Under the pieces are notes generated by a model that saw nothing but the letters and a program-made list of their open reading frames with translations, ran no database searches and was not told where the DNA came from. Positions 5,231 to 53,689 of a stretch of DNA of 64,000 nt are shown here, one piece after another (position 1 is the stretch's first letter; each line of letters opens with the position of its first letter). Source of the stretch: Phytophthora sp. 'mugwort' (Eukaryota > Oomycota > Peronosporomycetes > Peronosporales > Peronosporaceae); NCBI GenBank assembly GCA_033558025.1, contig JAUCEF010000018.1:1426001-1490000 (forward strand). The letters run 5' to 3'. The translations under genes were made by a program, and so were the position numbers.

Positions 5231-6457
5231 CATGCAGATCGCGGCCGGCCTCTATCGACTCTGATTAATACTTAGCGGACCGTAATCGAACAAGGTCAGC
5301 CCTCGATCGGATCGGTACACCCTTCTGGCAGATCGGCATACAGGTTCGGGCATACGGGATCTGGCAGATCGGGCCGATCCGGCGATCAAGGTCGGAAGAT
5401 CAGGCTGATCCGGCTTCCGCAGATCGGCCTACAGGCCTTCGTCTGAGATCGGTCAGAGCGGATCGCCCTTGCGGTCAAGCTTGAGCAGATCGACAGCGGA
5501 GTTGGCAGATCGGGCCGATCCGGCGTTCAAGGTTCGAAAGATCGGGCTGATCCAGCGTCCACAGATTGGCCTACACCCCGTCGTCCCAGATCGGACAGAT
5601 AGGATCGACCTTGCGGACAAGATCGAGCAGATCGGGTTGATCGGTATTCTCCGATCGGTATACGTGTTCTGACATAAGCGATCCGGCAGAACGGGATTGG
5701 ACCAGCAATCATCTTCGGGCATGGGCGAGTGTGAGGACGGTACGTGTTGAGTGCTTAAAGAAGGGCAAGCTTCAGGAGATTCAGGTGGTATGAGATAGGG
5801 TTCAAGATGTGAAGATAGGGCCAGAAAAGGATAAGTAACAATCAGACTCGAATTTATATTGGACTACTTAGGCGTTTTTAAGTGCCGCTGGAAGGGATCC
5901 ACATTGGCCCTCCAATGTATCAACTAGTCCAAGGTAGCAGATCAAGCGTCGCGGTGTGAGGGTCGGATCGTATATTGGCCGACCCTCCCCCACGGTAGTG
6001 AACTTCTGCTTAAGCGCATACCCCGATCGATCGGCATTCAGTGCTTGGCTGACGATCCTCTTGACTCAACTCGCAAAAAGATCCCGCTAAAAGAAACGGC
6101 AAGCAACTCAACTCAAGAAAAGGAACAACTCCACACGGCAACTTCGCCCTCAGATCAAGTCCAGGCCGCCGATCAAAGGTCGACTACCTTATTTCAGAAC
6201 CAATAACGGCAGCAGAGCGAAGACCTCAGCGCTGCTCCACGTCCCCATATCCCGCCAGGACGTTCAAGACTTTACATGGCTGCATCCTTCGGAGTCTCGA
6301 GAGAGCAGATCCAGCCCACCGACGGGTACACAAGGTGCGACCAAGTTCAACTGATCACGGATCATCGGGGAACCCCCTCCGTTAGTCGTTGTCTGGGCGC
6401 AGTTGGTAAGCGGATCGGGTCTTAAGCATATTTTGACCGATCCCGCTACACTACACT
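5231..6457 (+). mobile_element. 3' end of a family C retroelement (antisense-ORF segment plus LTR), 5'-truncated
   Basis: From about 5660 to 6457 this stretch matches 53000-53689, the 3' end of element C: shared landmarks are an AAGAAGGGCAAGCTTCAGG block, a TTGGCCGACCCTCCCCCAC block and the end GACCGATCCCGCTACACTACA. The part 5280-5700 is extremely rich in GATC and reads antisense as low-complexity protein, as expected for the N-terminal part of the family C antisense ORF. Nothing of gag or pol is present. It lies between the D LTR and a DDE transposase remnant. Confidence 0.6.
5363..5643. repeat. 141-bp tandem duplication, GATC-rich
   Basis: The block starting GGCAGATCGGGCCGATCCGG at 5363 is repeated, diverged, from 5504. 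The period is 141 bp with two copies. Both copies are dense in GATC. Spacer-repeat logic is absent, so this is not a CRISPR array. Confidence 0.65.
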
Positions 6458-11454: not shown

Positions 11455-13236
11455 AGATGCTGGAAGAGGCCGGCCTTACGGCAAGAGCGTTCGACGCTGA
11501 CGACCTGTTCCAGTTGGACGCCGACACGATCCGGATCTCGGCCGCGTCGCTTTTCAACTTGCTGAAGCCCCTCGTGGACGAGCGATCGGCGGCCGCAGCG
11601 CCCGAGACCAAGACCGAGCTCAGCTCGATAATCGAGGCCAAGGCCGGATACGTCTCGCCGCCCGAGACCAAGGCGGCGTACACCAGGTCGCCGGAGTACC
11701 ACACCGGATCATCGCAGTACGCGTCGGCTACGTTCAGAAGTCGGATCTAGCAGCTCAGTGGAGCCGCGATGGATGTCGCTTGGGCCAGCCGGTGTCGCGA
11801 TGCTGTAGTCACGTTCTGCGAGCACTCTGGCAGATAAGATCCCGGCTCCGCGTCTGGCGAGACCGTTGCCAGCCTGGATCCGATTAGCGGGTCCGGTCCA
11901 GGAACCGACGAGTGGTCTACGTATTTCCAAGCGGCTATGGCACGTTTCCTGAGCGAATCTCAAGAGGCCAGGGCTCCGCGACCGGCTCCGTTCTCACGCG
12001 GTCCGGGATCGCAGGATGTCGACATGGAATCGGTGGGATCACAAGATCACCACCCCGAGCACTGGGAGTATGATCCGGATGATCTCGACATGGGATCCAC
12101 GAGACGCACGGCTACGACAATGGCAGAAGTCGTTCTCGTTCTGATTGGATCGTCGACGGTTTAACGCGTCAAGATACCGGCCATCTTGGATCTGAAAGAA
12201 TTCACAGGCAAGGATCATGTCGAAGAGCGTGCACGAGGGTGGATCAGCAAAGTCAAGTCTGCATTCGCGAGGGGTCAAGCTACAGACCAAGAGAAATGCC
12301 TTACATGCGCGGATCTGCTCACCGGGCCCGCGAGGAACTGGTACAGGCAGCTGAGCCGATCCACGCGGTCGAAGTGGAGTGACTTGCTCAGGAGCTTCCA
12401 AACGCAATACTGCGGATTGGGAGTCTCGGTAGCATGGCAATACTACCACGCGCGCAAGCGCGCAGAAGCCACCGCTCTGCACCCCCTCAACGTTGCAGGC
12501 ATGCGCGCGAGACTGAAGATCAAGGATGGCGACGCGAAGGCCCGTCGCGAGCACGTGGAACATTTCATCGAGACTCTGGCAGACCAGGATCTTGCGGATC
12601 AGCTCACACTGCTGCGCTTGGCTGACGCGGATCTGCTGGAGGACGTGCTGCGCGCGCGAAGTCGCGCCAGAAGAAGTCGACCGGATCCGGTAAGTACCGA
12701 TCCAAGCCGAGTCCTGCGCCACCAAACGGCGATAGCGCGCCAGCCCGTGCTGTGCGCGCTATCAAGATCCCCGATTCCGGATCCGAGTTCGGATCGGACT
12801 CTGAGGAGTCAGGATCCGAAGGCGAACTGTGCCGAGCGTACGTGACGGCGGCAAGTGACCAGTCTCAGGCAGTTGCAGCAGCGGATCCACCAAGAGCACC
12901 GGATCCTGGGCGCTCGAACGATGCGCCAGAGGATCCTCGACAGCAGGATCGCCGCCCGCGTTTCGGCAGAGATGGCCAGAGACGATGCTCGCACTGCGGG
13001 TCTCATAAGCACTCGGATCCTGGATGTTGAAAGCGTCTGATCTGTCAGAAATGAGACAAGAGAGGACATCCGTCTGATCGGTGTTTCATCGTGTGTCGTG
13101 GCTGTGGCGAACTCCACGATCACAGATCACAGCAAGTGCCAGATGGAAGAGTTCTACAACCTCATCCGTCAGTGGTTCGACCCCAGCAAGCATCCGGGAC
13201 TACTACCTGAGACTGCGGAGAAGATGCTAAACTAGG
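11455..13236 (+). pseudogene. Element B gag, middle and C-terminal part
   Basis: Begins inside gag at KMLEEAGLTARAFDADDLF, which aligns with LMKEAGLVAGAFDADDLF of element C. The capsid region is at 12186-12660 (LKEFTGKDHVEERARGWISK, then GPARNWYRQLSRSTRSKWSD). Three Cys/His modules follow at 12985-13130. The first, CSHCGSHKHSDPGC, is a perfect CX2CX4HX4C; it is followed at once by a TGA. The second has lost its second Cys, and the third reads CRGCGELHD. The N-terminal part of this gag lies at 24495-25110 on the other strand. Confidence 0.75.
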
Positions 13237-15224: not shown

Positions 15225-16330
15225 GATCTGCAAGTGGTGGATCCTGGGGTGAACATAGAGGAGGAGATCCGTCACCTCCGCGACATTATCTGGTCCTACC
15301 AGCACTTTACTGATACGGCAACGCACTGCCTCCTGCGGCTGTAGGCGTGGTATGTGACATCGATGTTGAAAAGCCACCCCAATCGCACAACGTGTGCGAA
15401 AGATCGCCCCCCAGTTCCGCGAGAAGGTATCGGATCTGCTTAAGGGACTGCTGTCGGTCAAGATCATACGCCACTCAACGTCTCCTTGGGCATCCCCAAT
15501 CGTGGTGATCATCAAGAAGAATGGTATGGACATAAGGTTGTGCATTGATTACCGCCTGGTCAACGGTCTTACTAAGCTGATGGTCTACCCGATGCCCCTG
15601 ATCAACGATCTGCTTGAGGATCTAAACAAGGTGCTGTGGTATTGCTCGCTGGATATGGCGAGTGGCTTCTGGGTTGTGTTTATGACGGATCGCGCTCGTG
15701 CTATATCGGCATTCGCCACGCCGTTTGGCCTGTTTGAGTGGAACCGCATGCCATTTGGACTGAAGAACGTCCCACAGATCTACCAGAGGCTAATCGACAA
15801 CGCACTGTACAGCTTCTTGCGGATCCATCAGCGGCGGATCGAGGATCCTCAACGGACACCTTCGAAGGAGGAGATCCGGAGAAAGTAGGTGAACCTTCCG
15901 TACTGGTGAGTTGATCCTACATCGATGACATACTTGTTACGGCCGGATCCTCGGATCATTTGTGCGAACGAGTGAAGCACCTGTTCGCCACCTGCGGCAA
16001 GTGGAATATCTCGATCAGTGTCGCGAAGAGCTTCTGGGGACTGAAGAAGGTAGATTACCTCGGACATCGTGTATCCATCGAAGGCTTGGAGGCTCCTGCG
16101 AAGGATCTCAGTGCGCTGGTGGATCTGCCATTCCCGAGATCTCTACGGTCTATGCAGTCGTTCTTGGGTAGTCTGAACGACTACGGACGCTTCATTGAAG
16201 ACATGGCGGTGTACGTGTCGGTGTTGTACGAGCTGCGAGAAGTGGATTTCGCCGCGATGCGTGCTGAGAGCGGGATCGCTGTCAACGAAGGGAAGATCGG
16301 CCGAGAGATCCTCGAAGGCGGGGCCCCCAG
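15225..16330 (+). pseudogene. Element B reverse transcriptase
   Basis: Pre-RT sequence (RIEDLQVVDPGVNIEEEIRH) starts at 15215. The main RT frame 15394-15888 shows STSPWASPIVVIIKKNG, then LCIDYRLVN, then the first catalytic Asp in CSLDMASGFW, and the FGLFEWNRMPFGLKN block. An in-frame stop comes at 15886-15888, but the catalytic YIDD box is intact at 15918-15929. The thumb and connection follow (WGLKKVDYLGHRVSIEGLE, MQSFLGSLNDYGRFI). Some catalytic residues survive, but frameshifts at about 15380 and 15895 and the stop inactivate it. Confidence 0.8.
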
Positions 16331-16454
16331 TTCGATCAGGATCCGGAGGCGTCAGAGCCGAAGTGGATCCGAGCTAGAGCAGCGTTCTCCACACTGAAGA
16401 ACAAGATCGCGACGACCCCGATCCTCCGACACTTCGATCCGGAGAAACAGCCTA

Positions 16455-16815
16455 TGCTGATCGTCTATGCCAGCGAGTGGGCAGTATCCGCCTCCCTGGT
16501 GCAGGATCACGACGGCATATACTTGCCCGTGTGTTCACGAGCCGCACGTTGAAGTCGGACGAATTGAACTACGGCGTCGTACAGAAGGAAGTGCTAGCGC
16601 TGATGCGTATGCTGGATCTGGGTTATTTGATTCTGGTCGGCGAAAACCCCTGACGCGGCACTCGACGCTTGCTTGGCTGTTCCGCGCCGCACGGCTCCAA
16701 GGGCGGCTCGGACAATGGGCCGCGCTGCTATCGCCCTGGACGTTAGAGATTACTAAGTGCACGAAAGGCGAGAATGAGATATTGGAATCGCTGGCTGCGT
16801 GTGTAACGCCATGAT
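16455..16815 (+). pseudogene. Element B first RNase H (ordinary Ty3/gypsy type)
   Basis: Follows RT directly. Recognisable blocks, in shifting frames, are MLIVYASEWAVSASLVQDHDG, LNYGVVQKEVLALMRMLDLGY, then TRHSTLAWLFRAARLQGRLG and QWAALLSPWTLEI. This is the normal retrotransposon RNase H and connection. Element C has the same blocks at 48060-48440. A TGA ends the reading at 16814, just before the second RNase H. Confidence 0.65.
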
Positions 16816-16820
16816 CGATA

Positions 16821-17330
16821 GTGGATCAGGCGCTGGTAGCAATCGCACCGCGGAAAGAGCCCCATCGAGCAGTACAGACTCCGATCCCTATAGTGAAGCC
16901 CGACGAGGAGCTTCTGGTCGCTAGTTTCGATGGATCCGCCCGAGTCAAACGCGGCGGAGGCGCCTTCAGAGCTATCCTGTGGAGGTGGGCTCGAGTGGAC
17001 GGTGGTCAACGCGGAGTCAGTATGGGCAGAAGTATGACGGTCAACGAGGCGGAGTACGGTGGACTGCTGTTATGCTTTGATCTGTTAGAAGGACTGGATC
17101 GAGGACGTTTGGTGATCTGTGCGGACTCCAATTTGTTGATCCGACAGATGAAGGGCGAGATCGACTGCAAAGCTCCCGCTTTGACGTTGTTGCGGCAAAG
17201 GGCTCTACACCATCTGAGATCCTGGCCGGATCACGATCTGCTTCACGTCAAGCGAGCATGGAACGCCAGCGCAGATAGTCTGGCGAGTGCGGCGTTAAAG
17301 CGGGAAGCAGGTACCGAAGTGATGGACGAC
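16821..17330 (+). pseudogene. Element B second RNase H (archaeal-type, aRNH)
   Basis: A second RNase H fold sits after the ordinary one, in one open frame (16821-17528). The four acidic residues of the family can be seen: Asp in VASFDGSARV (about 16929), Glu in TVNEAEYGG (about 17050), Asp in VICADSNLLIRQMKGE (about 17125) and Asp in WNASADSLAS (about 17275). The GGGAFRAILW and LLLCFDLLEGL blocks and the HVKRAWN strand are typical of archaeal/plant RNase H1. All catalytic residues are intact here, unlike most of the element. Its extra activity probably supports primer removal; that is inference from the Tat and Chronos literature as I remember it. Confidence 0.75.
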
Positions 17331-17524
17331 CAGACACGGAAGGATCTGGTGATGCTAAATCGGCTACCCGAAATCCTAACCACAGCTGTCGAGGATACTA
17401 CGCTTCGCATTGCAGCCATGACGACTAGATCCCGCCGGAAGGTCACCAGCCCCAGTGTGCTGCACGAAGAGGCGGTCCGCCAGCTGAGAGTGGATCGGAT
17501 CCGACAAGCTCAAGACGAAGAAAA

Positions 17525-18790
17525 GTGAATCTGAACCTCAAGAAGTACCTTCAGGGGGATGTGAAGGATCTGGAAAAGGACGAAGCTCGGGAGTGCAGCA
17601 ACGTGGCTGCTGACTGTGAGATGGACGAACAGGACCTATTCTACTACTGCCCGCCGTCTGCGAAGGTGGAGGAACAGATAGACGGGTTGCGTCGTCTTGT
17701 CGTGCCCGAGACGCTGCACGAGGATCTACTGCATCACTATCACGTCAGCCTGGAGGACGATCATTAGGGGATCAGACGAACATACCAGCGGATCCGGGAC
17801 CACTTTTATTGGCGTGGACTCTTCAGGAGCGTCCAGCGATTCGTAGGTGAATGCGTGGATTGCGAGACTGGCAAGGGGCGACCGACCATATGCGGCGGGT
17901 TACCCGGCAATATCCAGGCCACCTACCCTTTTCAGGTCAGAGCGATAGATCACATTCCCTTGCTGCCCAAGTCGTACAAGGGCCACACGGAACTCCTAAT
18001 CTGGGTAGATCTGTTCACCGGTTACGTCATCGCCAAGGCGAGTGTATCCCGGACAGCCCAAAGGATCGCGGAATCCTACGAGGAATGTGTGTTCCGGCGC
18101 TTCGGTGCGAGCGAGGTGATCCGGCATGACAGGGAGCCTGGCTTCATGTCTGACTTCCTTCAAGGCGTTCAATCGGATCCTGGGCCAGAGAAAGCGAGCC
18201 ACCATGGCTTATAGGCCCCAGGCGAACGGGACTGCGGAAACGCATGGTGCAGACGGTGACGAGACCCAGACCAGCGCTGCTGGGACGAGTACGCAGAGCG
18301 CCTGACCTTCGCTAGCAACACGGCACATGATCGGATCCGAGATGACACCCCTTTTTATCTTGTGCACGGTTGGGATCCACGCATGACACTAGAGGCAACC
18401 CTCCCGCTGGGCAGCAGGAGACGCGAGATCGGGATCCACGTCGATGGCGGTACCGGATCCAGTGCTATTACCGGCAGGCGAGAGCGGACGTGGACGAGAA
18501 GCTGAACGGCTATTACGGATCGGGCCGAACGCCACAATGATAGCGTGGATCCGCAAAGGATCGAGGCCGGCACTCGAGTGTGGCTATATCTGGATCGAGT
18601 CAAGGAAGGATACGCGCGGAAGCTAGCGCATATGTGGCGTGGTGCCTTCCGAGTGTTGAAGATGGTGCAACTTTCGCTGCCCAACTGGAGACAGCGGGGA
18701 CAGATTACACCCTTTTACGGTGGTGCATGTGTCCAAGTTGAAGCCTGTGAGAGCATTCTCCGATCGACCAAAAACATACTTGGCCGTCGA
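17525..18790 (+). pseudogene. Element B integrase
   Basis: Zinc-binding HHCC module: His in LLHHYHVSLEDDH (about 17730-17765, ended by a TAG), Cys pair in GECVDCETGKG (about 17850-17875). Core: first Asp in RAIDHIPLLPKSYKGH (about 17945), second Asp in IRHDREPGFMSDF (about 18125), then RPQANGTAE-like sequence with the catalytic Glu near 18230. The C-terminal part near 18600-18740 reads ARKLAHMWRGAFRV, matching element C. At least three frame breaks are present. Integration and, through the chromodomain that follows, site choice would be its role. Confidence 0.75.
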
Positions 18791-18829: not shown

Positions 18830-19080
18830 TTGAAGACAGCTGGGATCGAGGGCTAGAAGAAGGGGGAGTACGAAGTCGAGAAGATCAGCGACATGAGGTC
18901 GGGCCGTCGAACCCGCTATGGACGATTACTGCGCGAGTTCAAGGTATACTGACGAGGCTACGACGAGCCCACCTGGGTTGAAGAGGCGGATCTGAACTGT
19001 GGGGCGCTGTTGCGTGAGTTCCGGCAGGATCGGGCCAAGAGGATTCGTTCCAGGCAATGCAGTCGCACGAGGAAGCTTAA
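18830..19080 (+). pseudogene. Element B chromodomain at the integrase C-terminus
   Basis: From 18866 the frame reads EYEVEKISDMRSGRRTRYGR, then LLREFKVY, a TGA, then RGYDEPTWVEEADLNCGALL. Element C has the same module without that stop (YEVEKIADLRSGRRTRYGR ... PSWVDEADLNCGALL). The stop stands where the family has Trp (WKGY/WRGY), so it is a TGG to TGA change in an aromatic-cage residue. Chromodomains on integrases are known to bind histone marks and steer chromoviruses to heterochromatin. Confidence 0.75.
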
Positions 19081-19635
19081 GTGGTGAAAGCCACGGCAGC
19101 AAGCTGGTTGCTGTAGGTGGTACTGAGGTTGAAGGCTTGCACGAAGACTGCAGGTGTGAAGGGGGAGGATCCACGTTCACTATTCGGTTTTGTACGTGAC
19201 GAAGTTGGTAGAAGCTCCGCGGGAAGGCCGTGAGAGAAGAAGAAGGAGGGTTTCCGGCTGGCGAGTTGGTCGCCACGGCGGATGAAGCGAGAGAGGATAC
19301 AGGGAGGCTGCATGCCTAAAGATGGAAAGGAGAATGAGTGTGCATGTGACCAGAAGATGCGGATCAGGTGAAATAACTAAGCTCGCTACAAGGATCTCGG
19401 ATCCGACGATGAACGGAGGATCTGAGAACGATGAAGATACGGCATACGCAAGACAAATTAGCTGAAGCAAGATATTGAATGGATGCCGACATTCAAGACG
19501 AATCACTACCGCTACTAAGTTAGTGGCGTACGACGTAGACTACTCATGATCCGAAGCGGACGGAGAAAACGTTATGCAGAGCCGGCCGATCTGGCGAGAC
19601 GGATGAGGAGTCGGATCCGTGCGGAAGTGATTGTG

Positions 19636-22404
19636 TCACGGGGCGCTCCTGTCATAGTCCGCGAGAGCCGCGGTCAGAGCTTGGAGCGGATCCCGTCTCT
19701 CTGCAACCGCCCCGCGCCCGGGGAACCACGTAGTGCCTTCGGATTGCAGAGGGAAGTGCATGAACACCGGATCTAACAGCAGGTCCAGGTTGCAACAGCC
19801 CGTCTGACGAGCTTTTTCGAAGATCTGGCCTTGCAGATTCCGGAACTTGGCGCAAGCATGTGAGCTCCGATTCTTGCGTGTGCGTCGCGCTCGGACTTGG
19901 GCATCGGGAAGGAGTGCGTAGCTTCACAGTAGGCCTGACGGTGATCCTCCTCGTAGGCCCGGTAGCTCGTGGCGAGCGCTGCTACCTCGGCGGATCTGGC
20001 TGGATCGAAGTCAGCGTCTCCAGGACTGGTACGTCGAGGGCCTTCCACGGCTCCTCTCTGTACAGAGCCTTGATGTTCTCTTTCGTGAGCAGGCTCGGAA
20101 CATAACGCGAAAGATCCAATTGTCCCCCGTGACTGGCCCGCTCAGGGAACATCCACCCGACCGAGAGCACACGGTTGTCGATCAGGATCCGGGGCTTGAG
20201 GGTGTCGAAGATAAGCACACTAATCTGGGAAAGATCCCAAGGTGCTACCTCTGCCGCGACCACGACCCGCGGCTGATGGAAGCCGGGGAGAAAACTATCT
20301 GCAGGACCGAATGGCTGGGAAGGGGGATACGTGGCGGGTATAATGGCTGGAGAGGTCGGATTGGGTGTGCCGGCTGCCTGAGTCGCACCTTCCACCTCTT
20401 CCTCCGCTTCGGCAGAAGTCGGATCTTGGTAGACCACGATGGGGGTAGCTTGAGATCCCTCGCCACCGGAGATCTCCGCGGAAAAACTGCGTTGACCGGC
20501 GTCGAATCGGGATCGCACCAGAGCCATCTGGAGTTCGTCGTCATCGGCGTCGTCGAAAATCGCGTCCGAGTCGACGAGCCCGGCGTAGGATCCATTACTC
20601 CTAGAGCTGGGATCGGAGCTAGATCCAGTTCCTGAGCTGGGTAACTCGTAGTCTCCGTCACCGACCTCAGCCGCGGTGTCAACAACGAGATCCAAGGAGG
20701 ACCCTGATTGAACTGAAGGCACCTTCGAGGCTGATCCGGAGGCAGTTGCGCCATCCACCGCAGGGAACGAGGAACAAGGCACCTCGTTCGGCGGGCTCGG
20801 ATCCTCGTGGCGAGGAGAAGCGGGTGGCCGCACGGGCCTCCTGGAAGAAGCCTGGTCACTGTGAGCCACGGCATTAGACCGCCCGCAAGGTGCAACCGAA
20901 GAGCTCCGCATGGCGGCCGAGGCGATCGACGCTAAGTTGTCGAGAGCGCTGTCCCGCTCCATGACGGCCGAGTCGTGCTTGCCGAGCAGGCCTTGGTGAT
21001 CTTGCGACAGAAGCTCATGCTGACCGCGGAGTCGATCGAGATCTTGGCGGACCAGCTGGTACGCTTGCTGCATGTCGGAGATCTGCTCAAGGAGATCTCT
21101 CTGGGCATTGAATTAATTCTGCCCCTCCTGCATAGCATCGTCGAGACCGAGGCGCGCCTGATCGCGTTTTCTAGTGAGCTGAGTCACTTGGACTGCCGCA
21201 GACTCCAGATCTCGCCGAACTTGAGCGCCGGTGCAGATATTGGTGTTCGCGCGGGTCACCTGACCCTGGGTCCTCTTGAGCTCCTGAGCGATCGTGTCGC
21301 GAGCCACCTCGAGTGTCTTGTGATCCACGCGGAGATTACGGAGCTGGTCTTGCGTTATGTGCGGTGAATCTTCGGCACGCGCGTAATCCCGATAAGCTGC
21401 TCCCAGCGAGCGCTTCAGGCGCTCGAGCTTGATGCTCGGGCAACATCTAGCTTGCCCACGTATGATCGTGGACCTGGTGAAGATCCGCGCGACGACGCTC
21501 AGCCTTGTCATGGAAACCCTCCAGCTAGAGGGTCCGCTCACCTCGAACGTGCAGCTCGATCCGTGCAGCATGCAGATCTGCCGCGGGAACTGATCCGTCG
21601 AGCCGTTGGTGCACTTGATTCAGCTCTTCCCGCAGTCGCTGAGCTTCACGTTCCAGATCACGGACATGCTGCTTCCGCTGCTCGTGGCTGCGTTGGAGAT
21701 CCGCATTGTCCTTCTGAAGGCGAACGAGACCTTTGAACGCCGTGTCGCGCTCGGATCGAGAGGCTTGACACTGCTACTCGAGGTTGGCGGATTGTCGCCT
21801 AAGCCCGGTCACTTCATCTCGCAGATCCTGCACATCCTGGACGAGGGAAGGAGCAGCCCTCGGCAGATCGGCTGGTGCGGCACTGTCATGGTCGGATAAA
21901 CGACGCTCCAGGCCGATGGCGTACGATTGTAGGCGTGTGTACGCCTCCGCGCTGGTCTCCTCTAGCAAGGCGTAGCGCGCCAGCAGATCGTTAAAACCCT
22001 AGACCTCCACGCGGAGGCGGTCAGCTTCTTGGCACGTTTAGCTGCGTGACTTGGCGGATTCGAGCTTGAATAACGTCGTAGCGGTGCTGGACGAAGTCCA
22101 CGAACGAATGCGCATTCGTCCAGTTGGGCTTGACCAGCGCGTGAACTTCCTCGTTGTGACGATGCGCGGCAACCAGATCCCTCTTATCTTCCTGGTGCTT
22201 AGCCAGCAGCTCGTCGTAGGCACCAACGAAGGCGTGGATAGACGTTGCTGCGGCTGCAGCGGATCCAGATCCAACACCACCGGTGTTGCAGCCGCCGAAG
22301 GATCCGACGGTGTGTGGTCACAGTGTGCACGCGTGGAGGAGGACCGTCCGGAGAAAGGCGTGAGGCGTGGCGTCAGTATTAGGAGCGCTGTGGGCGGACA
22401 ACAT
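19636..22404 (-). pseudogene. Element B antisense accessory ORF (about 920 codons, decayed)
   Basis: On the strand opposite to gag-pol, between the chromodomain and the 3' LTR. It starts at an ATG (22404) about 100 bp inside the 3' LTR and ends at TGA 19638-19636. The longest intact piece is 363 aa (21073-19982). N-terminal third: alpha-helical and coiled-coil (HAFVGAYDELLAKHQEDKRD near 22220; QLRNLRVDHKTLEVARDTIA near 21330; LVRQDLDRLRGQHELLSQDH near 21050). Middle: acidic Ser/Pro-rich, disordered. C-terminal third: blocks shared with element C: LSQISVLIFDTLKPRI with GWMFPE, TKENIKAL, then DHRQAYCEATH and the terminal LDLLLDPVFMHFP...TWFPGR (about 19790-19700). Function unknown. A few TGA stops and frameshifts interrupt it. 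Confidence 0.7.
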
Positions 22405-22506: not shown

Positions 22507-22937
22507 TGTGGTATTACAGATCCGGATAAGATGGAATTTGACCGGCAGACGGAAGATCCATGTCGCCAGCGGCAGCCATAACAGCGTCAAGCTGATGGTA
22601 TCGGATCTGTATATGGTACGGATCCTGGATCCGCCCCGTGTGGTAAGGTCTAAGTACTAGATCCGATCAGTTTAGTTCACGCCGGGTTGAAGATCCGTAG
22701 CTAAATGGAGGTAGAGTGGAGACGGGTGGCCAGGAATAGGTCAGAGATGGGACCCTGGGTTATAAGTAGTCCGTAGGATCGGTTTTGGGATGGGAATTCC
22801 AGCCCGCCGACGGGTACACAAGGTGAACCATTCAGCAACTACACGGCCGTCGGAGTACCCCCCTCCGTTAGTCGGTGTCGAGTGCAGTGCGTGTGAGTTG
22901 GGATCCTACTGAATTTCAGCGGATCCACTCTACCACA
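22507..22937 (+). repeat. 3' LTR of element B (431 bp, internally deleted)
   Basis: Starts TGTGGTATTACAG and ends CTCTACCACA. It matches the minus-strand LTR at 25111-26007 at both ends, but a single gap of about 465 bp after GGGATGGGA (near 22795) is missing relative to that copy. It lies directly downstream of element B internal sequence. The bases to its right, TTCCC, are the complement of GGGAA, a candidate target-site duplication (see the 5' LTR). Confidence 0.8.
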
Positions 22938-25110: not shown

Positions 25111-26007
25111 TGTGGTGGAGTGGATCCGCTGAAATTCAGTAAGGTCCCAACTCACACGCACTGCGCCCAGACACCGACTAACGGGGGGGGGGGGGGGGGG
25201 TACTCCGACGGCCATGTAGTTGCTGAGTGGTTCACCTTGTGTACCCGTCGGCGGGCTGGTACTGCCCTCTCGTTTACACGAGATGCGCACTTGGTAGGCC
25301 TTGGATGTCCTTTGGGGACTTGAGAGGGGGGGTGGATCTGCGCGGGTATTCCTGCGCACGAGATCCGGTGTTGATTTGGTCTTGAGCTCTTGCGTAAACC
25401 CGTAATATAAATACGGGATCCGGTGTTGTTATTTCTGGAGGGTGTCCTTGCTTCTTTGTAGTTGTACTTGTTCCTTTACAATGCTTGCCGCTTCCAATAG
25501 CGGGATCTTGAGGGGTTTGAAAAACCAAAGGGCTAGCGCGACCTGGCCAAGCTATCCAGGGGCTGCCACGTGTGCAGGAAGATCGCCACAGTTTAGACTT
25601 GGTCTATGTATGAGGACAATAGAAATCCCCTATACTATAGTCAAATCTGCCTTCCAATGCAAATTCGGTTCTGATTTATACCTTAGCCTATCTACCTTCG
25701 GATCCCATCCCAAAACCGATCCTACGGACTACTTATAACCCAGGGTCCCATCTCTGACCTATTCCTGGCCACCCGTCTCCACTCTACCTCCATTTAGCTA
25801 CGGATCTTCAACCCGGCGTGAACTAAACTGATCGGATCAAGTACTTAGACCTTACCCCACGGGACGGATCCAGGATCCGTACCATCTAGAGACCTGGCGT
25901 GTCGCATGGTCCGATCCATCAGCTTGACGCTGTTATGGCTGCCGCTGGCGACATGGATCTTCCGGCTGCCGGTCAAATTCCATCTTAACCGGATCTGCAA
26001 TACCACA
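25111..26007 (-). repeat. 5' LTR of element B (897 bp)
   Basis: On the minus strand it runs from TGTGGTATTGCAG (26007) to CACTCCACCACA (25111), perfect TGTGGT/ACCACA ends. It pairs with 22507-22937 and holds the ~465 bp missing there. A run of about 18 G (25182-25200) replaces the short C-run of the other copy. To its right is GGGAT followed by element A RT; with the TTCCC to the right of the 3' LTR this makes a near-perfect 5-bp target-site duplication GGGAA/GGGA(T). Confidence 0.85.
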
Positions 26008-33156: not shown

Positions 33157-36100
33157 ATGGAGCTGCGCTTCCGGGGCAAGAAGAACGGCGAGGGCGCGGA
33201 CGCCGTCGGCTTCTGGTAGGCACACGTTGCAGTGGAATGAGCTGCTGCCGTAATCATCCTCTGTTAATGAGGTTTTCTCATCTGCATTGCTGTCCGTTGC
33301 AGGCTCTGCGAGGGATTGAAGAAGCGTCGCGTGCTGGGCAAGAAAGCGCAGTCGCTCACGTCGGCGGCGCCCGAGTGGGAGCTAACGCGTGTGCTGGAGA
33401 ATACGGAACTGCATTTCATGAATGAGTCCACGGGGCTTGTGGTGCCGCGTGACGAGGAGATGGGCAAGTTCATCTCGGAGCGCGACGTGGTGCGGCTCTG
33501 CTCGACGGATGAACTGGAGGCGCTGCTGGAGAAGTTTGCGACGCGCGACCAGGAGGTGGCGGCGGAGATGATGAACCCCAAGGCCACGACTCCTATCGGC
33601 GCGGCCCTGTAAGCCTCTTTGTCGTCGGTCGCTGGAGCTGAGGGGACTTAAATCCTGACGATGATGTCGTTCTTGTGTTGCTGGCGTATGTAGATCCCGA
33701 TTGAAGAAGATCGGCGTCACCAACCCAACGTTGAAGAAGCTGCAGAAAACGCTGGACGAACACACGAATCCTCATTCCACGACTAAAGGCAGCGAAGCGG
33801 ATGCATTGGACCAATTCCCCGAGGTGGATCCGATCTTTGAGAGCGGAGAGGTCGAAGAGATCACTGAAGGCACTGGAAACCACCCAAGAACATGTGATAT
33901 GTGCGAGGTTTCGTGGCCTGACGATGCTTCGGGCAGTATGTATCAGTGGACGAAGCTGGGGATTGTCACCCACCAAGGGTGCGCCCAGTTCACTTCTGAT
34001 GTGCTGGCGCAGCATCCTGAGATTACAACTCGTGATGAGTTTCTGAGCATGTCCAAGACGCCAGTGTCGAGCTTGAATAAGCCAGGTACTTTCCACGTAA
34101 CGGTGCATCGGGCAATGGAACTACCAGGGACGCAGATAATTGGGAAGCAGGCGCCTTATGCTAAGCTATCATTGCTTCCGTGGAAGGAACCAATGCAGAC
34201 CAAACCTGTTGAAAGTGGTGGCCGCAATCCCGTCTGGATTAGTATGCATGACAACGCGATGCAGTTCTCACACATGTACAACAGTACCATCACACCCATC
34301 CCGCTGCTTGAGGTCGAGGTGTACAACTCCAACTACCTTTCCGACGATCAAGTTGCTTGCACATTGGTGGATATGAGTCCATTGCTTCGATATCCTAATG
34401 TCGAGGCAAAGAGATGGTTCACTTTGTCATCTCGAGCCCTGCTAACGCAAAGCACAGGCCAGCCTAAAATCATGCTCGCGATCAAGTTTGTACCGACAGA
34501 GGGGGAGATCAGCACTACCAATGCGCACAAGTTCCGCGTCCATCAACTCAAGTCCATTGGGCTCGCAATACCAATTTGCGCAGTTTGTACGTGCGATTGC
34601 GATCACCGAGATAAAAAATACTTGATTAACTGGTATGCTCATTTGTATTTAATGCTGCATTTTAGGTGACCGTTCCATCATGAATGCGTTGAAGAGTATC
34701 TGGGGTTATCGGTGCGAACTCTGTGGAATTGACGTGCACAAAGGGTGCATGATGAAGGCTACAATCCAGTGTGAATGTGTGGCCCAGGAATTATTAAGCG
34801 CTGGACAGGAGGAACAGGAGTATGGAGGTATCAATTTCCGCGTACTGAATGATGGCGTGCTGCGCCCATCAGGGGAGCTCTACGTGACTTTCCGTGGTTT
34901 GCATTTGTGCACAAAACACTGTCGGGACGATTTTCATGCGAAGAATATTTTTGAAGGGGACACGTATTGTCGGCTGAACTTCGACGGGATCGTGCACGAG
35001 ACGAGTCCTGTACTGAAAAGTGCCGACCCGATGTACATGGAAAACTTGTGCTTTAAGGTCCGCCATCCCAATTCGACCTTCCGCATCGATGTCATCGATT
35101 TCAACTCGGATCAGTGCATTGCACAATTGAACGTGTCACTCTTCCAGCTTCTCCAACGCAAAGCTGACAAGTTTATCCGTACAAACCCAACGCTGATGAG
35201 TTTGCGCGACCCGCTCCGCCATATCAGCCTGAACAATGAGACGAATCAAGCTGCAATCAATGATTCGTGGGCGGCATTGCCAATCCTGGATGACAGAGAT
35301 CATTACAAGTTATCACCATCTCTGGGATCTAAGCTTCAGCCCGGTGATATGTTAGGCTTTGTGCTTATCGATTTGGAGTATGTGGAGCACAAAGAAGACT
35401 TACTCCGCGTCCGGGTGGACAACGATTCTTCTCTTCTTGAGCGCGAGGACAAAGAGTTTTCAGTGGAATCGTTGCGAATTACAATTGAGCGGTTTGGCCG
35501 GGCAGTTAAGATTTTCCAAGGGATTGATGCCGAGTATGCCAGTGTCATTTCTTGGAAGAACAAGAAGAAATCTGCAGTGTTCTTCATTTCGTTCTTGTAT
35601 GGCTGCCTGTTTGCCGACTTTGAGTACGCTCTGTCGTATATCTTTGGAGGAATTCTAGTGTACATGCTGTATCGACTGCATCTTCGACTTGAAGGGGCCT
35701 TTACAAGGCGTTGGGTGGGATATGAAGAGTACGAGCTTGAACAAGAGGAGGCGCAGAAGCTTTACAAACCATTAGCAGCTTTACACGTTGCTGTCCACGA
35801 AGCACATCTCTCTGAGGAGACGGACAGTCTTCTCATGGAATCTCAGTCGCGTTTGAAGGACGTCTCGTCATCAAAACTTGGCTTCTATGTTCGTATCAAT
35901 TACCGCCCCAATGACAAGCAGTCCGAAGCGGGCGACATGGTACTAATTCCTTCTGGCTACGATGAGACTACTGTCGCCTGGACGAATGTAGTGGGGAAGA
36001 GCCGGAAGCCGACGTGGCGCAAGAGTTCTCTTTCAACAGCAGGGGCCATACCAGCTGCGAAACTACGGAAAACGCTTCCGTTCCGGAATTTCAACGTGTC

Positions 36101-37232
36101 TTGGCGTCATGATCCTAGGGTATGCACTTGCGATGAATGTGTTGCATTTCAGCAAAACTTGATGGAAGAAGCATCAGCGTCGATTGCAGCCCCCAGCTGT
36201 GGTATCGATCATCATGCCTACTATTTTCCGATCCCACAAGCGTCTCGGAAAAACTTTTCTGGTCGTGATGATCTGGTGCCGTGGTCGTCGTTTCCTGGTC
36301 TTCTGCAATTTGATTTGTGTATTTCTTTAAGCGGTGAAGCGAAAGAAACGCCGGATTTGATTGCTGCGACCGCGATGATCCCGCTTCGGAGTCTTCTGAA
36401 GCGGGATGGCACCTCGAGTGAGATGATCCTTCCATTGTCTTCATTCTCGACGCCAGATGCCGTAAACAGCTCCACAGATTGCATTTCTCAAAGCTCAGGA
36501 GAGAAGCCCGAGAGTGATTATTTGCTTGTTCGCGTTGAGTTTCGGGTTCCTGAGGACAGTCAAATGTGCTCGAATGATAAACTTTTGCGGGACGAAGCCT
36601 GTGGCACACAGGAGGGGAGACCTGCCAACGCAACTGCCCCGCGGAAAAAGCGTCGTGTTAGTCGTACTGAGCGCAGCTTTTCCGAGTTTGTGTGCGAGAG
36701 CATGGTGGAGAAAGAAAAGTCCAAGATCATTGGTGCGAACTTGTTTGATGCGTTCTGGAAAGTGAAGGACACGATTGCACAGCTACAGAACGAGATTGGC
36801 CGTGCGTGTGGTGCTCTCGCATGCGCTGATAACCTTTTGAACTGGACACATCCATGGAAAACGGCAACTGCTTTTGTTGTGGTGGCGATGATGGCTCTGG
36901 TGTTTTCGGTTGTTCGTGGACGTTGGGCGATTCTTCTCTTTGGGCTTACGGAATTCGGCGCGGTATTCGTAGACGATGCTCCCACAAGCAAGCGTGTCAG
37001 AAAGATCTTCTGGAATTACCTATCGTCGCTTCCTACTGATCAGGATCTAATCGAGTTGTACGAACCCGAGCGCGCCGTGTATATGAAAAGGCGCAAAACG
37101 CAGCAAGAAGAAGACAAAGAAACGGCAGTTCGTCTCCGCTACCACGCACTGTGGATTGGTAACATTTCATCGAAACTCGAGGGAGATCGCAACACTAAGG
37201 TGCGCTCTGCCAAGTTAATTGTCTCACTGTAG
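33157..37232 (+). CDS. Multi-C2, C1-domain membrane protein (MCTP-like), 1274 aa
   Basis: Four exons: 33157-33215, 33303-33608, 33694-34586, 34666-37232; 3825 nt, frame closed. Domains in order, approximate residues: Cys/His cluster 188-220 (CDMCEVSWPDD ... THQGC); C2 253-395 (GTFHVTVHRAMELPG ... PLLEVEVYNSNYLSDDQ); C1/diacylglycerol-type zinc finger 400-455, completed only by splicing (CAVC from exon 3, then CELCGIDVHKGC and QCEC from exon 4); C2 485-620 (GELYVTFRGLHLC); first membrane hairpin 723-760 (FFISFLYGCLFADFEYALSY); a divergent C2 790-1045; second membrane pair 1150-1190 (AFVVVAMMALVFSVV); basic cytosolic tail. The C2 plus C-terminal membrane plan recalls MCTP proteins, which tether membranes in a Ca2+/lipid-dependent way. 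The insertion of a C1 finger is unusual for that family. Confidence 0.9.
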
Positions 37233-48059: not shown

Positions 48060-48996
48060 GTCAACCCGTGATAGTTGTTTATGCCAGTGAGTGGCGATCT
48101 CGGCCGCTCTGATGCAAGAGCACGATCGCGTGTACCACCCAGTAATGTTCGCGAGTCGTACGCTAAAGTCGAATGAAATTAACGGCAACGTGGTAAAGAA
48201 GAAAGTGTTGGCCTTGTTGCGAATCTTAGATCTAAACTACTACATGTTGGTTGGACGACAGATCCGGATCCTGACCAGACACTCGACGCTGGCGTGGCTC
48301 TTCAAATCGCCTGGTCTCTAGGGACGATTAGATCAATGGCTGCACTCCTGTCGCCATGGACGCTGGAGATCGAGAAGTGTACCAAGGGAGAAGATGAGAT
48401 CTTGGGGACGGTCGCCGCCAGCATTGCACCTCGGTCCAAGGTGGACGAGGCTTTGATCGCGATCGCACACAGGAAAGAACCACGCCGTCAGATCCAAGCA
48501 CCAATGCCAGTAATAGGCGCGGACGAGGAGCTGTTTGTGGTGAGCTTTGACGGTCTGCACGAGTAAAACGAGGTGGCGGAGCCTATAGTGCAATTTTGTG
48601 GAAGTTACCTGAGTGGACGGTTTTGAAGGCTCGATCCGATTATGCCACGGATCTGACTGTGAACGCGGCAGAGTACAATGGACTTCTGCTATGTTTTGAC
48701 TTGTTGGAAGGAATGGAGCAAGAACGTTTGGTGATTTGCGGTGATTCAAATCTGGTAATCAGACAAGTACGAGGCGAGATCGACTAAGGTACCTGGATTG
48801 ACGCTGTTGAGGCAGAAGGCTTTGGATCGGCTCAAGGTCTGGCCAGACCACGAACTGTTACACGTGAAGCGTGACTGGAATGCTAATGCGGACAGTTTAG
48901 CTAGCGCTGCGCTGCAACAGCAGCAAGGAGTGAGCGTCAACGAGGTGGAGGCGTATCAGGATCTGGTCACGCGGAATTGTCTGGATGAGATCCTAA
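48060..48996 (+). pseudogene. Element C ordinary RNase H followed by archaeal-type RNase H
   Basis: First domain, 48060-48440: AISAALMQEHDRVYHPVMFA, SRTLKSNE, KKKVLALLRILDLNYYML and RHSTLAWLFK, then SPWTLEIEKCTKGEDEI. Second domain, 48520-48950: first Asp in FVVSFDG, Glu in TVNAAEYNGLLLCFDLLEG, Asp in LVICGDSNLVIRQVRGEID, last Asp in DWNANADSLASAALQ. The order and residues match element B, so the duplication of RNase H function predates the split of the two families. A TAA at 48564 and a frameshift near 48790 break the second domain. Confidence 0.75.
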
Positions 48997-50690
48997 TGAT
49001 CAGATGGGAAGATACCGTGGCGCGGATCTCGCCAGTAGCTACCCGATCAGGAACCAGACCCGTGCACCGACCGACAGGTTTGGACGAGGTTTGTGAGAAA
49101 CTCGGTGCTGATCGTATCCGACAGGCGTGGAAAGCAAGTTTGAAGAAGTATCTGACTGGTGATGTGACTGAACTCACACAAGATCAGGCTAGACTGTGTA
49201 GTAAAATAGCGTCGGACTATGACGTCGACGATAATAATCTGCTGTTCTACTGTCCGCCTACCGAGCGATCGGAAATAGATCGGGACGGATTGATGAGTCT
49301 GGTCGCGCCCGAGACATTCCACCTTGATATCTTGCATCACTATCATGCGAGCGTTGAAGGTGGACATCAAGGCATTGGCCGTACCTATCAACGGATCAGG
49401 GATCATTTCCACTGGAGAGGTTTATATCGCAGCTTGCTGAGATATGTGGGTGAATGTGTAGATTGCGAAACTGGAAAGGGTCGCCCCACGATCAGAGGTG
49501 AATCGCCTGGGAACCTCCGGCGACATAGCCTTTTCAGATCATTGCGATGGATCACATACCGTCGCTGCCGAGGTCGTTCAAGGGCAACACTGAACTACTG
49601 ATCTGGGTAGATCTGTTCACAGCATATGTGATCGCGAAGGCAAGTGCGTCTAGAACGGCACAGACGATCGCCGAGTCGAACGAAGAGTGTGTCTTCCGGG
49701 GATTTGGTGCTAGCGAGGCGATTCCCACATGATTGAGAACCCGGATTCATGTCTGACTTCTTCCGAGCGTTAATAAGATCCTTGGACAGCGACAGAAGGC
49801 GACGATGGCGTACCGACCACAAGCAAACGGAACACCGGAACGGTACAGACCATAACTCGAGCTTTGAAAATGTATGTTTAAGATCTCAACCAGCAGGATT
49901 GGGATGAGTACGCGGAACGACTGGCGTTTGCGATCAACACGGCCCAAGATCGAGTGCGAGGGGATACACCGTTCTATCGCGTACATGGATGGGACCCCAG
50001 ATCAACGTTGGAAGCCACCATACCTTTGGGTAGTACTCGCACCCGAGATCGAGACCCTAGGAGATGGAGGTATTAGATCCGCCGTTATTACACAACGGCA
50101 AGGAAACAAGTCAATGTAAGCTGAAGGAGGCGATTTCAGATCGAGCCGATCGGTATAAAATGAAGAGGCCTACCCACATCAGATCGAAGCCGGATCTCAA
50201 GTTTGGCTGTATCTGGATCGCGTGAAAGAAGGATATGCGCGTAAGCTAGCACATTTGCGGCATGGTCCGTTCCGAGTTGCAGAGAAGATCAACGAATACT
50301 CATTGCGCCTCGAGGTGACCAGAACGGAGTATCGGCTCTTCCCGATTGTACATGTGTCCAAGCTGAAGTTGGTCAAGGAATTCCCAGATCGGCCACAGAT
50401 CGCGTTGCTGTACCAGCTCGGATCGACTGAACGAAACCCTGTTGCTCGAAGATAGCTGGTCACCGGATCTAGAGGCAGATGAATACGAAGTGGAGAAGAT
50501 CGCTGATCTGAGGTCAGGTAGAAGAACTCGGTATGGACGGATCTATCGGGAAATTCTGGTACATTCGAAAGGATATTCAGACCCCAGCTGGGTAGATGAA
50601 GCCGATCTCAACTGCGGAGCACTCCTTCACGATTTCCTTTGGGACAGGCTAACCGGAATCGTTTCGGTGTGATGCAGTCCCACGAGGAAT
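48997..50690 (+). pseudogene. Element C integrase with chromodomain
   Basis: HHCC zinc module: ILHHYHASVEGGHQGIGRTY and ECVDCETGKGRP (49330-49490). Core: MDHIPSLPRSFKGN with the first Asp (49547), LLIWVDLFTAYVIAKAS, second Asp in a PHD-stop-EPGFMSDFF reading (49728-49765) where an Arg codon CGA has become TGA, and YRPQANGT with Glu shortly after (49818-49840). The C-terminal part reads ARKLAHLRHGPFRV and HVSKLKLVKEFPD. The chromodomain at 50480-50640 is intact: YEVEKIADLRSGRRTRYGR ... YSDPSWVDEADLNCGALL. The role would be heterochromatin-directed integration, inferred from chromovirus integrases. Confidence 0.8.
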
Positions 50691-51129
50691 AGTGAGATCG
50701 AGGGGATCGCGGCGAGTTGGTCACCGCGATGACGGATCGGAAGAAGGATCTATGAGAAGACCATAGATCGGAGGAAACGGGTGATGCATGTGACGTTATG
50801 TATGTAAATCCGCACAAAAATTCGAGAAAGTGACGAAGGCAATCCGGATCGGGTACGCTCCAGACGAAGTAGTAGGACGCATGAAGTCCCAAGCAGTCAA
50901 GACGGAAGGAAGTAAGTGTGGATGAAAAGAAAAATGGCTAAGATGAATGCAGGGAGACCTACTCACGAACGGCGGCTTCACACGAAATTGTCGGGATGGA
51001 AGACCAGAGCCAAGTGTAGAACGAACCGAGGCAAGGGTCGAACTTGTTCCGAAGTCGACCGATCCGGTACGTCGGATATTCCGTAGGCCGATCACGAAAT
51101 TAGTTGCGCCAGAGATCGGCGTTGTCAGC

Positions 51130-52980
51130 TTCACGTAGGGCCTCCTGAAGGTCACAGCAAGGTTGGCTGCCCGAGATGCCCGACCTGGATACCAAGTCCC
51201 ATCGTCCGTCGTGGTCGGGAGGTGAAGGAAGAAAGGATCGAGTAATAGATCCAGATCGGCCCACCGCTCACGTATCATTAGAGGAAATGAACGGAATAAC
51301 GCTCGCCAGCTGTCGCCCGCTCGGACCCGCCTTGACGACGACCATGATGGTACTGCTCCACCACTGGGTCACGACGTTGTTCGGCGGTAATTGGGAGATA
51401 TGAGTCGTCTCCCAATAAGCTTGGAGATGTCGTCGCTCGATAGCGACAAGAATCTGCGATCTGGGCGAGAGTGGTATTCGATCTGCGATGGAGCGGCAGA
51501 TCGAAGGTCAGGGTCTCCTCCGGGTTATCCAACACCTCGCAGGGTCGAGCGGCGATCAAGGCCGTGATGTTTGGACCAGTAATCAAGTTGTCCAGATAGT
51601 CGGTACCGGCCCTGGGGGCGCGAACTCCTCGCACGCGCCGCGAGAACCGCCAGCCAGAATGGATGGGGAGCCGGACGGTCAAGGTGCGCCATAGTATGGC
51701 GGTTACTTGAAGCTGACTCAAAGTCATCGCTGGCCACGGATCGATCTCGGCCTGAGTAAGAGCACGAGGCTGATCGTATCCAGGCAGTGAGATCGAGACT
51801 GGGAATAGCAGCGGGACCAATGGCCGCCGAGGAGATCCAGGAGGGGTAGCCGGAGGAAATTTTTCCGGCATCGGATCTAGCAGAGCGTTTAGATTCAGAA
51901 GGAGAAGCTGGCGGACTTGGGGAACTAGGCCCACCCTGAACAGCCGCGGGACTGCCGCGATCAGAGTGTCCAGGACTCGTCGGTTGACGAGCCGCAAGTG
52001 TCTCGTCAGATTCGTGTAGGGAGCCCTCGGGGGTGCCAGGATCGGCTATCTCGATTCGGTTGAGAATCATCGCCGCCCGGGGGGGGGGGATCGGCGACGA
52101 GCTTCAGAACGAGATTGGGACAAAGCGGCCAGCACTTGATCATCGCTGTCCTCCTCTTCGTCTTCTTCACCTTCATCCGATTCTGTCAGTCCGACTGACG
52201 GGGAGCCTCCGTACGGGACGCAACTGAGTTATGTACACTGTCGATCCCCGGACCATCGTCGCCGATCTCTGGCTGAGGCTCGGATTCGGCTAGGAGAGCG
52301 ACTCTCGCCGAGGCAAAGCTGCCTGAACCTTGCGTCGGGGCAGTCGGAACTACCGGGCGGCCAGTAGCAGGAACGGGCCGAACTGCGCAACGGATGCTTA
52401 GGCGAACGACCAGGTGGAGAATGGGAATTCGATCGGCTGCGTTCCCGTTTACCAGATCGAGGGGGGGGCAGATCCACTAGGGCTCACTAGCAGTACCATC
52501 TCGGCGAGACGCTCGGTGACCAGGTCGATGCCCGTGCCGATTCCGTCTTGGTCTGACTTAGCCAGTGGTAAGCGGTCTGAAGATCTGCGATCTGGTTATC
52601 CAGCGCAGGGTTGTCCGCCGAGATGTACCCAGCTCCACACCTGCATCTTAAAATTGTCAAAGGGAGTTAGGTACGACTCAGCTAACTCGACAGACAGAAG
52701 ATCATGTCATCTTACGGGCGTCAGCAGATTTCGTCGCAGCTGTATCCCATCACGGATCGCGGCTGCGAGATCAAACTGTAAAAGGAGATTGGTATCGACC
52801 TCAGCTTGAAGGCAATCTCGCCCGAGTTGGAGCCGATTCCGCTCCGCGCGAAGTTGATCACGCTCACGGACGAGCTCGCCAGCAGTAGAGGTGCCGGTCC
52901 ATCGACTTGTGGATGCCGGACCGGCTACCGGAGCGGAAGAAACGACCCGATCGGGCCTGATCTGGGCTCGGCGGAGTTCG
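51130..52980 (-). pseudogene. Element C antisense accessory ORF (decayed)
   Basis: Same place and strand relation as the element B antisense ORF. N-terminal side (about 52900-52690, minus): coiled coil TAGELVRERDQLRAERNRLQ and QAEVDTNLLLQFDLAAAI. Middle: Ser/Pro-rich, disordered (SPSPPASPSESKRSARS near 51920). C-terminal blocks: TLSQLQVTAILWRTL with GW, TGPNITAL and EVLDNPEETLTF (51720-51490). Then a RRHLQAYWETTH-like block (about 51430) and the terminal LDLLLDPFFLHLP...TWYPGR (51255-51180). Each block aligns with element B. Frameshifts separate the pieces, and the exact start and stop are not determined. Function unknown; no known domain seen. Confidence 0.65.
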
Positions 52981-53689
52981 TTCCCCGGGCCGATCGATGT
53001 TGGCAGATCGACATACGCGTTCGGGCATCCGCGATCTGGCAGATCGGGATTCGATCAGCAATCATCCTAGGGGATGTGCAAGCGTGAAGACGGTACGTCT
53101 TGAGTGGTTGAAGAAGGGCAAGCTTCAGGAGATTCAGGTGGTACGAGATAGGGTTCAGGATTCTGGGAAAATAGGACCAGAAAGGGATAAACAACAGTAA
53201 CGGATATTGGCCGACCCTCCCCCACGCTAGCAAACTTCTGCTCAAGCGCATACCTCGATCGATCGGCATTCAGTGCTTGGCCGACGATCGTCTCGACTCT
53301 CAACTCGCAAGATCCCGCTAGAGGAAGCGGCAAGCAACTCAAGGAAAGGAATAATGTCACAGGGCAACCTCGGCCTCGGATCAAGTCCAGGTCCCGATCG
53401 AAGGTCAACTGCCTCAGATCGGAACCAATAACGGCAGCAGAGCGAAGACTTCCGCGCTGCTCCACGTCCCCGCCTTCCGCCAGGACGTTCAAGACTTTAC
53501 ATCGCTGCATCCTTCGGAGTTCCAAGAGAGCAGATCCAGATTATCAACGGGTACACAAGGCGAGACCAAGTTCATCTGATCACGAATCATCGGGGAACCC
53601 CCTCCGTTAGTCGGTGTCTGGGCGCAGTTGGTAAGCGGATCGGGCTTAATCATATTTTGACCGATCCCGTTACACCACACCTGAATTGT
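52981..53689 (+). repeat. 3' LTR region of element C (left limit uncertain)
   Basis: Matches the fragment 5660-6457 throughout and the element B LTR at its 3' part (ACGGGTACACAAGG ... CCCCCTCCGTTAGTCGGTGTC). It ends GACCGATCCCGTTACACCACA at about 53689, where sequence of a pogo-like transposase begins. By analogy with the 897-bp LTR of B it may start near 52790, but no terminal TG is certain. The 5' partner is missing at the other end of the element. Confidence 0.65.

Follow-up and report, generated by a model that had tools for sequence, protein, structure and literature searches.

Antisense genes of long terminal repeat (LTR) elements have been described in several lineages. In plant Retand elements such genes lie between pol and the 3' LTR, TRP28 is encoded by 97% of clusters, and the genes have been proposed to act in regulation (PMC11963269). 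Antisense genes are also found in Grande (GENE23), RIRE2, and Boty of Botrytis cinerea, and a nuclear location has been reported for GENE23 (PMC7264820). Some of the plant antisense proteins have SMC-like, topoisomerase-like, or checkpoint-like domain matches (PMC11963269, PMC7264820). Among retroviruses, HTLV-1 carries the antisense gene HBZ, which has minus-strand promoters in the 3' LTR and a nuclear product (PMC10186651, PMC11963269). Oomycetes of the Peronosporales and Pythiales harbor Chronos elements, which combine the native Ty3/Gypsy RNase H (gRNH) with an additional archaeal/plant-type RNase H (aRNH) and have a chromodomain behind the integrase (Ustyantsev et al. 2017; PMC5348765). 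The main text of that paper does not contain the word "antisense," and the legend of its scheme gives open reading frames and pol domains with no antisense gene (PMC5348765).

We analyzed two elements, B and C, in a window of 64,000 nucleotides from Phytophthora sp. 'mugwort' (assembly GCA_033558025.1, contig JAUCEF010000018.1, positions 1,426,001 to 1,490,000). The antisense slot between pol and the 3' LTR is already known, but neither the oomycete case nor its protein family was found described in the literature matches listed. No report of an oomycete antisense gene of this kind was among the literature matches listed, a coverage that mostly leaves out subscription journals. The accessible text of PMC10508981 does not contain the word "antisense," and that of PMC12477816 holds no such antisense-gene report. 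Plant Retand/Tat elements resemble the oomycete elements in the slot of the antisense gene (PMC11963269) and in their dual RNase H (PMC5348765), whereas they belong to another host lineage and, according to the 2017 tree, to another element lineage (PMC5348765). They differ further in that the conserved domain of the oomycete protein is C-terminal, behind a coiled coil, with no TRP28 match among the matches listed. Boty, a non-plant element, has an antisense gene in this slot as well (PMC7264820). Chronos shares with B and C the dual RNase H and the chromodomain behind the integrase (PMC5348765).

Judging from a domain plan that matches in gag, reverse transcriptase, dual RNase H, integrase, and chromodomain, B and C appear to be Chronos-like Ty3/Gypsy elements. 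On the plus strand of B we found a gag piece at 12165..12842 (Retrotrans_gag, E = 6.6e-4, under the Pfam cutoff) and a reverse transcriptase at 15370..16394 in two pieces, 15370-15885 and 15915-16394 (RVT_1, E = 1.4e-13 and 7.2e-7). The gRNH at 16268..16549 (RT_RNaseH_2, E = 1.3e-8, over the cutoff) is apparently degraded, and the usual aspartate motif was not seen in it by eye. The aRNH follows at 16815..17525 (RVT_3, E = 5.8e-9, over the cutoff), where D-E-D-R-D residues could be read by eye, and then an integrase piece at 17768..18211 (Integrase_H2C2, E = 3.3e-9; rve, E = 8.1e-5, under the cutoff). Matches to RVT_1 and Integrase_H2C2 were over or at the cutoff. Pol ends with a chromodomain at 18866..19021, recognized by eye in the window copy and containing one internal stop. 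Comparison of copies placed the 3' LTR (TGTGGTA...TACCACA) at 22507..22937 on the plus strand, without about 450 bases found in other copies. A further, inverted family-B LTR at 25111-26007 (minus strand) includes the ~450 bases absent from the B 3' LTR.

In element C, the aRNH lies at 48548..49127 on the plus strand, where the B aRNH aligns in two neighboring segments (55 and 59% identity), and a frame with a chromodomain ends pol at 50367..50669, also on the plus strand (Chromo, E = 0.045, under the cutoff). Chromo was matched at E up to 0.1 in all six copy pieces that we searched, which had been picked by motif; two of the six were over the cutoff of 25.1 bits, one per family (L017 of family B, 27.2 bits; L050 of family C, 27.8 bits), while L009 of family B scored 20.0 bits, under the cutoff. 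The gag-pol regions of B and C are 66-70% identical by blastn. Elsewhere in the window are two C2-domain frames over the cutoff (33701-37232, plus strand) and a SET/Rubisco-LSMT-like frame just under the cutoffs (37770-39020, minus strand), all probable host genes.

The antisense gene of B (19540..22404, minus strand) sits between pol and the 3' LTR on the strand opposite gag-pol and is present in the window as a broken copy, delimited by a conserved start and a family stop and backed by the selection described below. Its ATG, at 22404-22402, is where the first-pass annotation had put the start, and it is conserved: 12 of 13 covering family-B copies keep it, the remaining one having GTG. The proposed end at 19636 did not hold. 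It is a stop of the window copy, and the family stop, a TAG kept in 17 of 17 family-B copies (from a set of 18, window copy included), lies ~100 bases farther on at 19542-19540. Among the frames listed, the longest open piece in the window copy has 363 amino acids (aa; 19982-21073), and the remainder of the gene is spread over other frames with stops. From its translation, and with bounds that are approximate, the predicted protein has an N-terminal coiled-coil region (21074..22233, minus strand; periodicity in database relatives) and an acidic middle part that is rich in Ser and Pro and contains an SRS-type motif (20290..20990, minus strand). Homology searches, alignments, and a structural model delimit a C-terminal domain (19540..20290, minus strand) that contains the sequence blocks of the first-pass annotation and ~45 aa past the motif TWFPGR.

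In C, where the antisense gene is likewise a broken copy, homology extends on the minus strand over 51034..52986, both bounds being approximate. Alignments to most copies stop near its N-terminal side: 12 of 16 other copies stop at 52965-52990, one continues to 53194, and three stop earlier. Because most copies stop aligning at 52986, the stretch 52986-53680 of the window copy may represent inserted DNA or an LTR of another kind. It forms a repeat pair with 5326-6456 of the window, and the two are about 82-90% alike. The antisense protein piece of C matched B-family copies with E values of 1e-9 at best (window B copy, 2e-7), and a B-family piece matched C-family pieces down to E = 2e-16, although blastn gave no B-C DNA match in the antisense region. 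The similarity thus persists at the protein level after divergence of the DNA, as the first-pass annotation had supposed, and by sequence comparison the two antisense genes belong to one protein family. The C-terminal domain common to both spans about 230-280 aa. All four of the blocks claimed for it are present in B and C, but the last is not terminal, as about 45 aligned residues follow it. The long antisense frames once described in the two elements thus mark a real gene family, but both window copies are broken and neither holds a single open frame.

To measure constraint, we aligned 20 family-B copies and the window copy to window coordinates and removed three near-duplicates (L010, L013, and L020, 99.1-99.8% like a kept copy), leaving 18. 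Changes at two-allele sites were classed as shared, for the most part passed on by the mobile lineage, or as private, for the most part of later date; sites without exactly two alleles and codons with gaps were left out. The minimum codon coverage was 8 copies for B and, for C, 7 (frames chosen by stop counts) or 6 (other test). In the B antisense frame, shared nonsynonymous/synonymous (N/S) changes numbered 196/170 (ratio 0.39) and private changes 603/198 (1.03; Fisher P = 3.9e-13; P values for selection assume independent sites). The pol frame of family B had ratios of 0.40 for shared and 0.68 for private changes, the latter not quite neutral. Over the antisense region, the antisense frame had 76 stops among 13631 codons, and each of the five remaining frames had between 205 and 494.

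The first family-B test had used picked segments, and the repeat chose frames by stop counts alone. With frames chosen in this way, the antisense strand again showed constraint (shared versus private, 0.42 versus 0.99, P = 3.9e-11; larger windows, 0.42 versus 1.02). Neither the region's sense strand (0.69 versus 0.84, P = 0.13; larger windows, 0.87 versus 0.79) nor the antisense strand of pol (0.88 versus 0.83, P = 0.69) showed a significant signal. The 363-aa frame, which was fixed beforehand, gave 0.45 versus 0.92 (P = 2.6e-4). A mirror of the signal (0.49) appears in the sense frame whose third codon positions coincide with those of the antisense frame, but 494 of the 13606 codons there are stops; for the 363-aa frame, the mirror gave 0.49 versus 0.96 (P = 5.5e-4), with stops in 148 of 6184 codons versus 20 of 6197 in the antisense frame. 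In family B, constraint on the antisense frame is thus about equal in strength to that on pol; purifying selection kept the frame while the family was mobile, and neutral decay followed insertion. For family B, then, the selection on the antisense protein suggested by the first-pass annotation was borne out. The signal in family C, in which 16 of 17 sequences were kept for the stop-chosen frames (L038 was dropped), is weaker and depends on window size (150-base windows, 0.61 versus 0.90, P = 0.011; 210-base windows, 0.73 versus 0.88, P = 0.24).

Of the copies examined, 20 from family B and 13 from family C, none has a full-length intact antisense frame, a finding that the first-pass annotation had counted against such a gene, yet in family B the frame is selected. 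The longest antisense piece in these copies, among pieces of 150 aa or more, has 337 aa. The copies are 84-88% like B over long matches, with a few pieces lower or higher, and the pol frame of family-B copies is broken too (110 stops in 8906 codons). One family-B copy (L023) has a local inversion of its reverse transcriptase/RNase H part. Two family-B inverted pairs (G000 C9:2712388/2720069 and C3:2732758/2752629), each 99.8% alike, are recent inverted segmental duplications.

We then asked how often antisense domain and aRNH occur together in the genome. Considering the first 62 of 162 matches to the B aRNH, with duplicated segments counted apart, we found the antisense domain downstream and on the opposite strand in 45 places and on the same strand in none, at a distance of 1.4-3.8 kb (median, 2.2). 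The other 17 places lack a downstream domain; one is beside a local inversion and 16 have none nearby. Antisense places numbered 83, derived from 132 matches (several per copy), with 5 more matches in the aRNH count. Given 45 linked and 17 unlinked places, the gene appears to be usual in this element group, though some members may lack it. In a cruder count based on the Pfam RNase H, 82 of 111 RVT_3 matches were included and tandem-array copies left out. Of the 21 pairs that resulted, 19 were opposite-strand and 2 same-strand, both of the latter beside second copies; 19 of the 82 places were involved. A ~6.73-kb unit that includes a frame for an RVT_3 RNase H forms long arrays at G000 C12:3.31-3.42 Mb (minus strand) and C13:2.06-2.16 Mb (plus strand); many units are open over 2184 aa, most with identical scores, and the arrays are perhaps of a non-LTR element.

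Two profile searches retrieved 7 and 28 database proteins, 32 different ones overall, all named Phytophthora or Nothophytophthora and most annotated "hypothetical protein." No relative outside these two genera was found among the candidates scored. The longest, PHYSODRAFT_257355 of P. sojae (767 aa), has in order a coiled coil, a basic cluster, an acidic and SR-rich stretch, a Ser/Pro-rich linker, and the C-terminal domain. This architecture is retained, in the parts covered, by relatives from other species of Phytophthora and Nothophytophthora; the Nothophytophthora entries are partial and stop short of the coil. All of these database proteins derive from gene models, in some of which defects may have been spliced out, so that they support but do not prove the existence of intact genes. 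A periodicity of 3.5 residues was detected in 10 segments, picked by eye, of 9 database proteins (0 to 45 of 2000 shuffles were as strong). The proposed N-terminal coiled coil is thereby upheld in the relatives; the one coil piece of window B that was tested did not have significant periodicity (197 of 2000 shuffles as strong). Among 16 N-terminal parts, 13 contain a two-part cluster of basic residues resembling a nuclear localization signal (NLS), compared with 1 to 57 of 500 shuffled sequences.

The structure prediction and profile searches that the first-pass annotation had called for gave a helical core with no Pfam or PDB relative among the matches listed. In the model led by P. fragariae P0011, this core covers about residues 64-263, with pLDDT up to 98 by block, whereas the first 63 residues fall under 50 though conserved in sequence; the mean is 69. 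A longer model was poorer (mean, 57). The helical C-terminal domain contains basic residues. Foldseek and VIA returned nothing credible as a fold relative of this domain, no Pfam match to it was among the matches listed, and no bZIP family was among the matches listed, which included 25 of 113 matched families. HBZ contains a leucine zipper and is shorter than the oomycete antisense protein. Of the traits of an HBZ-like nuclear regulator, the oomycete protein shows an NLS-like cluster.

On balance, we think it probable that oomycete Chronos-like elements carry a selected, protein-coding antisense accessory gene whose product is a probable nuclear regulator of the element's own LTR. Because the start codon of B lies 103 bp from the 3' LTR, the promoter is probably in this gap or in the LTR, although an oomycete start-site motif had no match near the B 3' LTR. 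Transcription would start from a minus-strand promoter located within the 3' LTR or next to it, and the protein would be made apart from gag-pol. It could then self-associate through its coiled coil and, given the predicted NLS-like cluster, enter the nucleus, where the C-terminal domain may bind a partner such as element DNA or chromatin, the integrase, or a host factor that acts in silencing or transcription. Our bet is that the protein would act in trans to regulate or de-repress its own LTR, or else to control silencing, by analogy with what has been proposed for HBZ-type and plant antisense genes.

Other readings must be weighed against this regulatory one. The NLS-like cluster, the long coiled coil, and the basic residues of the helical domain would also suit a structural or delivery protein, either a particle component or an adaptor that takes the pre-integration complex to the nucleus or chromatin, and a part in carrying that complex into the nucleus has been discussed in the case of plant antisense proteins (PMC7264820). 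We consider such a role rather unlikely: the element already has Gag and an integrase with a chromodomain, manufacture apart from gag-pol would better suit a regulator, and no credible capsid fold match was obtained, though the protein may have such a fold. The shared slot and orientation, and the dual RNase H of both element groups (PMC11963269, PMC5348765), raise the question of whether this is the TRP28 antisense gene of plant Retand/Tat, by descent or transfer. This seems improbable, as sequence profiles gave no PF04195 match in 13 members or 9 proteins, PF04195 was not among the 25 of 113 matched families listed for 37 members, and Chronos and Tat lie apart on the published reverse transcriptase tree, though a single origin may still hold (PMC5348765).

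A foreign gene or another element, inserted and carried along unused, might account for the restriction of relatives, as far as candidates were scored, to Phytophthora and Nothophytophthora, but its position is the same in B and C and there is inherited purifying selection, and we give this reading very little credence. We give still less to the idea that the antisense RNA itself matters, for example as double-stranded RNA tuning silencing, or that the conservation stems from the sense strand. Sense and antisense small RNAs do occur along two LTR elements of P. infestans (PMC3522703), and the mirror sense frame carries a signal. However, codon constraint is strongest and stops are far fewer in the antisense frame, start and stop are conserved, and B-C similarity of the protein remains where the DNA no longer aligns, which disfavors this idea for family B.

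The finding bears on accessory genes of LTR elements more widely. Antisense genes are known in plants, a fungus, and retroviruses. The family may explain a set of Phytophthora "hypothetical proteins," and one Phytophthora relative is named after autophagy, probably owing to its coiled coil. It is conceivable, and we put this forward tentatively, that Chronos independently arrived at a pair of traits seen in plant Tat/Retand elements and some retroviruses, namely, capture of a second RNase H and possession, beside the 3' LTR, of a long antisense gene for a nuclear coiled-coil protein, which here would be a new family with a new helical fold. Elements with dual RNase H would then have a general need for an antisense regulator. 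A selected orphan antisense family in oomycetes, in elements with dual RNase H as in plant Tat, makes the question of convergence testable, both as to which trait came first and as to whether the antisense protein controls the LTR.
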